From positions 124,001 to 188,000 of the forward strand of contig JAQBOV010000005.1 of assembly GCA_028287895.1 (NCBI GenBank): a DNA stretch of 64,000 nt. The letters run 5' to 3'. Below are positions 1-4,145 of this stretch, one piece after another (position 1 is the first letter of the stretch; each line of letters opens with the position of its first letter). A program made the translations under genes and the position numbers. The DNA comes from Mucilaginibacter sp. GTDB lineage: Bacteria; Bacteroidota; Bacteroidia; Sphingobacteriales; Sphingobacteriaceae. Under the pieces are notes generated by a model, which saw only the letters and a program-made list of their open reading frames with translations, was not told where the DNA came from and made no database searches.

Positions 1-100
1 CACAATATTTTTTGAGATTAACCAAGGCTTTAATCGATTTTTCTGTTTCCCCGGCAACATACAACCTTAGTTCCCATTTTTTTTCGTCTTCCATAATCAT
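1..100 (-). CDS. kaiB: KaiB family protein, partial (N-terminus only, cut by window edge)
   Basis: Reverse-strand translation M(I)MEDEKKWELRLYVAGETEKSIKALVNLKKYC matches the KaiB N-terminus (LRLYVAG...S..AL.NLK..C). Its ATG overlaps the kaiC TGA (ATGA at 97-100). Confidence 0.85.
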   Translation of the reverse strand, partial: MIMEDEKKWELRLYVAGETEKSIKALVNLKKYC

Positions 101-1836
101 TTGGTCTGCGGTTTGGACGCCGAATCGATCTCTCCCTTTCTAATACGCGTAATTTCCTGCCTTGTTTTTTCCATTACGTCTTTTTTTAACGCTTCCTGTA
201 AATAAATTTTATTTAATTCTTCCTCGACAGATTCAAATTCGGTTTGCAAACTCGATATTTTTGCTTCCAAAACTTTTCTTTTCCTATTGACCTCCCGGTC
301 TTTCGCTGTTATTGCATAATCATGCAATACCCTACCTGTTTGCTCTTTTACCTTTTGCGCCTCACGGGCAGATCCGGTTAGTACGCCTTCCGGTCCAAGA
401 TAAACCTCTACAAGGTCAAGCCCTTTATCCGTAATAATAAATTCTCTTACCTGGTTGGAATGCTTCATACCGCGTGATTTCATTATATACATACCCCGGT
501 TACGTTCGCCATTGAACTCAATATCCCTAACCAGGATCCAGGTATCGACCAGCGACGATATACTTTCATCTGTTTGTTCCGTTACACTGGTGTTCAGGGT
601 AAGTGCGGTAAACATTACCGTAATCTGTTCATCCTGTAAAAAATCTGTCAAACGGATCAGCATCGCCTTTACTTCACCTACCGAGCCAACAGTTACCAGG
701 TTGGTAATCGGATCAAGTATAACTACTTCCGGCTTAAGGCTCCGGATCAGTTTATAGATAGAAACCAGGTGCATTTCGAGCCCATATAAAGTCGGCCTTG
801 AGGCATGTATTTGAAGCAGACCCTTTTTAATATGTTTATCAAGGTCAATATTTATCGATTTCATATTGCGGACGATCTGGTTGGGTGATTCCTCAAAAGC
901 GAAATAAATACACTTTTTACCGTCATTACAGGTTTGATTTGCAAAGTAAGCCGCCAAACTGGTTTTACCTGTACCGGCAGCGCCTGAAATCAATATACTA
1001 CTGCCTTTAAAAAAACCTCTGCCGCCTATCATTTGATCAAGAGCCGGAATCCCTGATGATATTCTTCCTGTTGAAACTTCCTTTTCTAACGTTAATGAGG
1101 TTACAGGCAAAACAGATATGCCATCATCGTCGATCAGGAAAGGGTATTCATTTGTTCCATGAAAAGATCCGCGGTATTTCACCACCCTGAGCCGTCTTGT
1201 TGATATCTGGTTGATAATCCTGTGATCAAGCAATATCACACAGTCTGATATATATTCTTCAAGTCCCTGCCTTGTTAATATGCCGTCACCCCTTTCGGCG
1301 GTAATAATGGCGGTAACCTTCTTTTCCTTCAGCCAATGAAACAGGCGGCGTAGTTCGGCACGTAAAATAGCCTGGTTATTTAAGCCCGAAAACAAATTTT
1401 CTATGGTATCGACCACTACTCTTTTGGCGCCAATACTGTCAATGGCATATCCCATTCTGATAAACAGACCGTCCAGGTTATATTCGCCGGTTTCCTCTAT
1501 TTCACTTTTTTCTATATGTACCTGATCAAGCCTGATCATATTATCTTTTTGCAACTGGTGAAGATCAAACCCAAGCGAAGCCACATTTACAGCAAGTTCT
1601 GCGGCCTGTTCTTCAAATGCCACAAAAACCCCGGGCTCTTTATACTCCAAAGCACCTTTTACCAAAAATTCTAATGACATTAAAGTTTTACCGCATCCGG
1701 CTGCGCCGGCAACCAAAGTTGGCCGGCCCGTGGGAAGTCCGCCCCCTGTAATTTCATCCAAGCCTAAAATTCCCGTCGGGGTTTTAGGCAGTGATGAATG
1801 ATTATTAGTACTTTTTTTCTTTTTGTTCTGACTCAT
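97..1836 (-). CDS. kaiC: KaiC-like circadian clock ATPase/kinase, two RecA-like domains plus C-terminal coiled-coil
   Basis: Two Walker A motifs (GAAGCGKT, GAAGTGKT), catalytic EE pairs (FVAFEEQ, YFAFEES), C2 motif TDESISSLVDTW, charged helical C-terminal tail. Confidence 0.93.
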   Translation of the reverse strand: MSQNKKKKSTNNHSSLPKTPTGILGLDEITGGGLPTGRPTLVAGAAGCGKTLMSLEFLVKGALEYKEPGVFVAFEEQAAELAVNVASLGFDLHQLQKDNMIRLDQVHIEKSEIEETGEYNLDGLFIRMGYAIDSIGAKRVVVDTIENLFSGLNNQAILRAELRRLFHWLKEKKVTAIITAERGDGILTRQGLEEYISDCVILLDHRIINQISTRRLRVVKYRGSFHGTNEYPFLIDDDGISVLPVTSLTLEKEVSTGRISSGIPALDQMIGGRGFFKGSSILISGAAGTGKTSLAAYFANQTCNDGKKCIYFAFEESPNQIVRNMKSINIDLDKHIKKGLLQIHASRPTLYGLEMHLVSIYKLIRSLKPEVVILDPITNLVTVGSVGEVKAMLIRLTDFLQDEQITVMFTALTLNTSVTEQTDESISSLVDTWILVRDIEFNGERNRGMYIMKSRGMKHSNQVREFIITDKGLDLVEVYLGPEGVLTGSAREAQKVKEQTGRVLHDYAITAKDREVNRKRKVLEAKISSLQTEFESVEEELNKIYLQEALKKDVMEKTRQEITRIRKGEIDSASKPQTK

Positions 1837-2666: not shown

Positions 2667-4145
2667 ATGATCAATCTTACTCTTGAAAATTTACCCGGTG
2701 ATCTTTTCCGGGTGCTCTTCGAAAAATCGCCCGGTTCAATACTGGTTAAAGCCGATGCGCCTAGATTTACCATACTTGCTGCCAGTGACGCCTATTTAAA
2801 AACAACCCTGGTAACGCGCGAAGAAGTATTGGGCAAGGGTTTTTTTGAGGTTTTTCCGGATACGGATGACCTGCATGATGAAACCACGGCCCGCGAAGTA
2901 TTTACAAAAGTAATCGAAACGCGCAAAAAAATGGACGTACCGGTTTACAGGTATGATGTTTTTGAGCCGGGAACCGATAACAAACAACCGCACTACTGGT
3001 CGTGTTCCAATATTCCCATCTTTGATGGCGATAACAGTGTAGCCTATATTTTAAACACTATTATTGATATAACAGGTGAGGTGAAGGCCAAAGAAGCCGC
3101 TATTGAGAGCGAAAATCGTTTGTTGCTTGCTGCTGAAGCTACAGGCCTTGCCATATGGGATCTGGATATCCCGGAAATAAATCTCACTTTTTCACCACAA
3201 TTTGGCAGCATATTCGGCCATCAGGCGGGAACACTGATCACCCTTGCGGACATCCGTAACCAGGTTCACCCGGATGATATGCAAAATATCGTATTAATAT
3301 CCTATTATGAATCATTGGTAACGGGCAGTTATTTTTATGAGATAAGAATATTCTGGCCTGATAAGTCGCTTCACTGGATACGCATTAAAGGCATTGTGCT
3401 GTTTAATAAAAACAAGGAACCCATAAGAATGCTGGGAACTGTTGTAGATATAACCGAAAACAAGCGGGATGAGATCAGAAAGAATGATTTTATAGCCATG
3501 GCCAGTCATGAATTAAAAACACCTCTTACCTCGCTTAAGGCTTATTTACAATTACTGGAAACAAAACTATCCGGAACCACCGATCCTTTTATAAAAACGG
3601 CGGTGGTTAAATCAGGCAACCAGGTAAATAAAATGACCGCCCTGATACACAACTTTCTCGATCTTTCGAAACTCGAACCCGGTAAACTGCAGCTCACCAG
3701 GAATACATTTGATATCAATCAACTCATTGGAGAAACTGTTTCGGAAAGCCGGTTGCTGAGTAATAGCCATAATCTTCATTTTGAACCTTCGGATGCGATC
3801 GAAGTGAATGCCGACAGAGAAAAGATAGCCCAGGTGATCAGCAACTTTATAAGCAATGCTAGTAAATATTCCCCAAAAGGAAGCAACATTACCTTGCACA
3901 GTACGGTAAATGACGACAACGTACAGGTGTCGGTAGCCGATGAAGGAATAGGCGTTAAATTGAAGGACCAGGAAAAAATATTTCAGCGGTTTTTCCGCTC
4001 TGAAGAAGAGGGACTGAAAAACATCTCGGGCTTTGGCATAGGACTATACCTGTCGAGCGAGATCATCCAGCGCCATAAAGGGAAAATATGGGTTAAGAGT
4101 GAACAAAACAGAGGATCAACTTTTTATTTCAGTTTGCCATTATAA
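2667..4145 (+). CDS. PAS-domain sensor histidine kinase
   Basis: PAS-like N-terminus, H-box MASHELKTPLTSLKAYLQ, HATPase motifs DEGIGVK and GFGIGLYL. Confidence 0.93.
   Translation: MINLTLENLPGDLFRVLFEKSPGSILVKADAPRFTILAASDAYLKTTLVTREEVLGKGFFEVFPDTDDLHDETTAREVFTKVIETRKKMDVPVYRYDVFEPGTDNKQPHYWSCSNIPIFDGDNSVAYILNTIIDITGEVKAKEAAIESENRLLLAAEATGLAIWDLDIPEINLTFSPQFGSIFGHQAGTLITLADIRNQVHPDDMQNIVLISYYESLVTGSYFYEIRIFWPDKSLHWIRIKGIVLFNKNKEPIRMLGTVVDITENKRDEIRKNDFIAMASHELKTPLTSLKAYLQLLETKLSGTTDPFIKTAVVKSGNQVNKMTALIHNFLDLSKLEPGKLQLTRNTFDINQLIGETVSESRLLSNSHNLHFEPSDAIEVNADREKIAQVISNFISNASKYSPKGSNITLHSTVNDDNVQVSVADEGIGVKLKDQEKIFQRFFRSEEEGLKNISGFGIGLYLSSEIIQRHKGKIWVKSEQNRGSTFYFSLPL

Follow-up and report, generated by a model that had tools for sequence, protein, structure and literature searches.

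A conserved kaiC–kaiB–kaiB–histidine kinase operon with an R. sphaeroides-like KaiC in Mucilaginibacter and related Bacteroidota

The window analysed here, a stretch of 64,000 nucleotides from Mucilaginibacter sp. (G000:C8:124001-188000, on a contig that runs on further left), carries a kaiC gene on the minus strand at its left edge. Reading the contig leftward past this edge reveals a tightly packed operon in the order kaiC, kaiB1, kaiB2 and a PAS/PAS histidine kinase gene, with 2 nt separating kaiB1 from kaiB2 and 12 nt separating kaiB2 from the kinase. Here kaiB1 and kaiB2 are simply the two kaiB genes numbered in operon order; the cyanobacterial subtypes so named are not meant. The features are listed in window coordinates unless the contig is given:

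97..1836, minus strand: kaiC, 579 aa, KaiC2-type (R. sphaeroides-like), with CI and CII ATPase domains (PF06745 twice)
1684..1707, minus strand: CI Walker A motif GAAGCGKT, residues 44-51, from alignment to 8dba
961..984, minus strand: CII Walker A motif GAAGTGKT, residues 285-292, from alignment to 8dba
553..558, minus strand: Ser427-Ser428, the predicted site pair for autophosphorylation, matching R. sphaeroides S413/S414 in the alignment
100..357, minus strand: C-terminal extension of KaiC past the A-loop, 86 residues, most of its length aligned with the R. sphaeroides coiled coil
97..100, minus strand: ATGA, the kaiC stop overlapping the first possible kaiB1 start, read from the bases
1..100, minus strand: kaiB1, first 33 residues; the remainder lies left of the window, to G000:C8:123804 (98 aa in total)
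G000:C8:123478-123801, outside the window: kaiB2, 107 aa, PF07689 at 86.7 bits
G000:C8:121798-123465, outside the window: kinase, PAS-PAS-HisKA-HATPase_c, 555 aa
2020..2523, plus strand: DUF2383 / TIGR02284 four-helix-bundle gene, a divergent neighbour upstream of kaiC, outside the operon
2667..4145, plus strand: PAS histidine kinase, 492 aa, likewise a divergent neighbour upstream of kaiC and outside the operon

The original prediction had placed a KaiC–KaiB module in a member of the Bacteroidota, and the genus Mucilaginibacter does carry one: KaiC contains two PF06745 domains (360 bits over the whole protein), each with an intact Walker A motif and catalytic Glu pair, and the left-edge reading frame, which had been taken for a KaiB, extends to a complete protein matching PF07689 at 96.4 bits (KaiB2, 86.7 bits; cut-off 27). 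The ATGA overlap and tight kaiC–kaiB coupling that it described can be read on the minus strand, but because a second in-frame ATG lies two codons downstream (ATGATTATGGAA) the overlapping ATG is not certainly the kaiB1 start; nor is the overlap universal, as nominal kaiC–kaiB1 spacing across 55 relatives ranges from overlaps to +39 nt. The gene order, with kaiC before kaiB, is indeed the reverse of that in cyanobacteria, but is not unusual, since kaiC-first order is usual outside cyanobacteria (PMC4794148; kaiC contexts in PMC3164672). Further kaiB and kinase genes, which the prediction suggested looking for leftward, are present in the same operon as kaiB2 and the PAS/PAS histidine kinase, so that the ‘two-protein timer’ it envisaged gives way to a locus with two KaiBs and a kinase. 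Around the operon, a gene for a serine beta-lactamase-fold hydrolase (G000:C8:120155-121702) follows the operon kinase immediately on the same strand, a DUF2383 homologue lies close to kaiC in eight relatives' loci, and other sensor kinases are close to the operon in several relatives.

Judged by its sequence, the KaiC is of the R. sphaeroides type (KaiC2), a subgroup described as having a Ser-Ser KaiC, an extended tail, KaiA-independent phosphorylation and an hourglass driven by ATP:ADP (PMC10076222). Its best solved relative is R. sphaeroides KaiC (8dba), to which it is 52.5% identical; the match to 8dba spans residues 16-546, taking in much of the C-terminal extension, and its 619 bits are nearly double the ∼330 bits obtained with cyanobacterial KaiC. 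It scores 734.6 bits against NCBIfam PRK09302 (cut-off 408) and 350 bits against TIGR02655, the cyanobacterial KaiC equivalog, which is below the cut-off of 546. The Ser-Ser phosphosite pair typical of KaiC2 and the R. sphaeroides hourglass occurs in all 54 Bacteroidota KaiCs compared, and at least 60 residues follow the A-loop in 53 of 54 relatives' KaiCs. Hydrophobic periodicity, with a median period of 4.2, is not decisive for a coiled coil in this extension and was dropped as proof of one. The KaiC of Ginsengibacter hankyongi (L083 5962-7479) is ∼70 residues shorter and lacks the extension, with the other operon genes intact. Three further PF06745 matches in the source genome are weak (at most 57.5 bits), leaving the operon KaiC as its only clear KaiC.

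The lack of a KaiA gene, claimed originally for the window, extends to the source genome (92% complete), in which no match was obtained at E≤1 by a search that scored above the cut-off in one control genome and gave matches in control genomes that include S. elongatus; the KaiA that would mark a cyanobacterial KaiABC system was thus not found. A bacteriophytochrome was looked for and none was found, and light input is therefore not evident. The corresponding search for rhodopsin had no match in any control genome, and so is uninformative on rhodopsin presence.

The four-gene arrangement is widely conserved among relatives. A scan of named genomes with the window KaiC, biased to close relatives because exact query peptides were used, gave 61 loci, 56 of which contain kaiC, two kaiBs and the kinase in order and packed; 54 of these complete loci are from Bacteroidota and two from Oligoflexales, and among the remaining loci are some on truncated contigs and some from phyla further removed. 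In the relatives' loci kaiB1 and kaiB2 are separated by −4 to 27 nt, and kaiB2 and the kinase mostly by no more than ∼10 nt. A less biased draw of 248 genomes of the phylum yielded 25 with KaiB, including 12 in the window's own class (10 with an adjacent pair and two with a single copy), and none of the KaiB carriers from the phylum's other classes had an adjacent pair. The phylum of L085, a betaproteobacterial MAG, gave 27 KaiB carriers among 249 genomes, three with an adjacent pair. Within the window's genus, KaiB occurs in 39 of 60 other genomes, nearly always paired, and is lacking in the remaining 21, so that the kai module is accessory yet common there. Two Bacteroidia genomes (L178, L179) have kaiC–kaiB1–kinase without kaiB2, and the kinase can therefore exist without kaiB2.

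Several variations on this arrangement were also observed. A single-domain receiver of ∼135 aa comes right after a shorter (∼430-aa) kinase in eight relatives (L059, L062, L063, L064, L067, L070, L078, L081), where it is likely the phosphate acceptor; no receiver follows the longer kinase in the source genome. Fusions of kaiB2 to the kinase were sought among relatives and none was found, the long frames (for example, 360 aa in G176) proving to contain ordinary KaiB ORFs with separate neighbours. Extra single KaiB copies lie away from the operon in genus mates G031, G041 and G059. In the L085 phylum, loci L168 and L172-L176 carry a canonical KaiB plus a second, very divergent KaiB lineage (a 100/98 branch), adjoining KaiCs of ∼330-360 bits, and L168 has two kaiB–kaiC units in tandem. 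Carriers of KaiB/KaiC include cultured soil Bacteroidota, among them named Mucilaginibacter, Pedobacter, Spirosoma and Segetibacter.

The two KaiBs of the operon belong to separate lineages. In the KaiB tree, KaiB1 falls in one branch with R. sphaeroides KaiB (support 100/99), and KaiB2 forms its own clade (98/87), with one long-branched member (L181) standing apart. KaiB2 and KaiB1 of the same locus are on average 46% identical, and KaiB2 is the faster-evolving, with a mean identity of 68% among KaiB2s versus 85% among KaiB1s. KaiB2 has nearly invariant residues of its own, N20, R23, Q49 and Q50 (T. elongatus numbering) among them, at positions where KaiB1 mostly differs. Isomerisation of three prolines limits fold switching in R. 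sphaeroides KaiB (PMC11551320), and the three switch prolines (R. sphaeroides P58, P65, P67) are present in 56 of 56 KaiB1s. The source genome's KaiB2 has Met at the third position, but 41 of the 56 KaiB2s keep all three prolines, so that their loss was rejected as a class-wide mark of KaiB2 and the sequences do not establish lost switching. The tandem kaiC–kaiB–kaiB–kinase order also occurs in Pseudomonadota (L169-L171) and Oligoflexales (L090, L091), but the second KaiBs found there have no firm placement with KaiB2 of the Bacteroidota; the tree, with its few columns, long branches and straying L181, does not show whether the second KaiBs of all phyla share one origin.

Fold predictions also differ between the two KaiBs. 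We ran AF2 with equal-sized ortholog alignments (25 sequences each), in the spirit of AF-Cluster (PMC10808063), on the orthologues from Mucilaginibacter dorajii (L041) in place of the source genome's own KaiBs. The KaiB1 orthologue was modelled, at low confidence (pLDDT 59.7), in the ground-state fold, with TM-scores of ∼0.8 against ground-state KaiBs (1vgl, 2qke, 1r5p) versus ∼0.4 against fold-switched ones. The KaiB2 orthologue was modelled in a thioredoxin-like fold (pLDDT 78.1), with Legionella Lpp1115/KaiB (4kun) as its closest match, followed by KaiC-bound KaiB (8fwj, 5jwo) and then the SasA N-domain (1t4y, 6x61). As AF2 may have memorised how KaiBs fold (PMC11344769), we take these contrasting folds as indications, not proof.

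We propose that the products of kaiC–kaiB1–kaiB2–kinase form a KaiB/KaiC timer that runs as an hourglass, like the KaiC2 system of R. sphaeroides, and signals through the kinase, with KaiB2 as a permanently binding-competent partner that would feed the kinase; we put the probability of this reading, somewhat better than even, at 0.55. What the analysis itself establishes is the order of the genes, the intactness of the motifs, the orthology, the distinct lineage of KaiB2 and the contrast between the predicted folds. We infer the timer core, a KaiC–KaiB1 hourglass, from homology. At high ATP:ADP, KaiC would autophosphorylate Ser427-Ser428 without KaiA because its A-loop is, by the same homology, presumably exposed, the C-terminal extension would pair and stabilise KaiC rings, and changes in ATP:ADP would reset the KaiC–KaiB1 hourglass, again without KaiA. 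KaiB2 may meanwhile stay in the thioredoxin-like, binding-competent fold and, in the weakest step of the scheme, might bind CI in competition with KaiB1 or after it, and relay the state of KaiC to the co-encoded PAS/PAS kinase. This role of KaiB2 as kinase-feeding partner is a testable guess.

A more specific version would make the operon a ‘split SasA’. Cyanobacterial SasA and KaiB are rivals for one surface on CI (PMC6769508), and KaiB2 is predicted to adopt the fold of the SasA docking domain. The output might thus come in two pieces, with kaiB2 coding for the one that docks: a permanently thioredoxin-folded KaiB2 would dock on the CI ring of KaiC, pass the timing state to the separate PAS kinase and compete with the slowly fold-switching KaiB1. 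If true, the operon would hold two neighbouring KaiBs, one that switches and belongs to the clock and one that does not switch and acts as adaptor for the output. We consider this rather unlikely; against it, the kinase occurs without kaiB2 in two Bacteroidia genomes, and the operons published for R. sphaeroides and R. palustris contain a single kaiB.

Other readings dispense with the timer or with a separate role for KaiB2. It is possible, if doubtful, that the operon is a metabolic or stress switch lacking any daily function, in which KaiC and KaiB sense ATP:ADP or stress and set the kinase; a role of this sort has been put forward for the kai operon of Legionella. The closest fold match of KaiB2, Lpp1115/KaiB, is linked to stress response and not to rhythm (PMC10808063), and the neighbouring DUF2383 gene and sensor kinases in several relatives, the failure to find a phytochrome and the patchy occurrence of KaiB in the genus all fit such a switch; against it, the nearer relatives of KaiC and KaiB1 are the KaiC and KaiB of R. 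sphaeroides, which form an hourglass in vitro (PMC10076222), and the phosphorylation and switch residues are all kept. With the timer core unchanged, KaiB2 could instead be a relaxed duplicate with the function of KaiB1, occupying positions on CI or raising the dose, as might be expected from its faster evolution, its retained PF07689 domain and mostly retained switch prolines, and its absence from a few relatives. Yet 56 of 61 loci, from several families, have an intact kaiB2 at this position, and KaiB2 has its own clade and its own nearly invariant residues; we therefore regard such redundancy as unlikely.

A circadian oscillator that sustains itself, as cyanobacterial KaiABC does, has in its favour that the catalytic parts of KaiC and KaiB are all present, but we consider such an oscillator very improbable here: no KaiA was found, the KaiA-less R. 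sphaeroides system needs an environmental change in ATP:ADP every cycle (PMC10076222), and timing in R. palustris is only proto-circadian (PMC4794148).

Much of this system has precedents, and the original view of a KaiA-less timer as poorly characterised is at least overstated. The KaiBC of R. sphaeroides is a KaiA-less, ATP:ADP-driven hourglass characterised structurally and kinetically (PMC10076222), and Bacteroidetes with only KaiB2/KaiC2-type genes were noted in 2017 by Schmelling et al. (PMC5520375). In a species description from 2024, KaiB/KaiC are termed rare among Bacteroidota (PMC11573002). We found no description of the conserved kaiB pair in open-literature text; an example may be depicted in Figure 4 of PMC3164672. 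Gene order, KaiA-less timing and Bacteroidota KaiB/KaiC being already known, it is the conserved pairing of KaiBs that makes this variant worth testing. The carriers, which include many cultured soil Bacteroidota, bear on the question of timing beyond the cyanobacteria; with one switch-type and one apparently locked KaiB per operon, the purpose of fold switching could be compared between paralogues in the same cell, and the operon may show how a KaiBC hourglass reaches its output without SasA.

The closest known systems include the KaiB/KaiC hourglass of R. sphaeroides (PMC10076222) with its kaiC–kaiB–PAS/HK operon, which R. palustris also has (PMC4794148). With R. sphaeroides (8dba, 8fwi, 8fwj) the present locus shares a KaiC2-type Ser-Ser KaiC with a long C-terminal extension, an orthologous KaiB1, no KaiA, a PAS histidine kinase in the operon and kaiC as first gene; it differs in the divergent kaiB2 that is inserted ahead of the kinase gene, its Bacteroidota host, a kinase with two PAS domains and, in eight relatives though not in the source genome, a single-domain receiver after the kinase. 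Cyanobacterial KaiABC–SasA resembles it in the two-domain KaiC, the fold-switch prolines of KaiB1, a kinase in the likely pathway and the likeness of the KaiB2 model to the KaiC-binding domain of SasA, but here there is no KaiA, the phosphosites are Ser-Ser and not Ser-Thr, the gene order is opposite, and the KaiB-like domain that SasA fuses to its kinase is a separate protein, the kinase having only PAS domains. Legionella KaiB (Lpp1115, 4kun), the top fold match of the KaiB2 model, and fold-switched-state KaiBs such as KaiBTV-4 (8ubh; PMC10808063) share with KaiB2 the predicted thioredoxin-like state, but KaiB2 shares its operon with a switch-type KaiB1. The Pseudomonadota and Oligoflexales loci noted above have the same kaiC–kaiB–kaiB–kinase order, with second KaiBs that do not place firmly with the Bacteroidota KaiB2.
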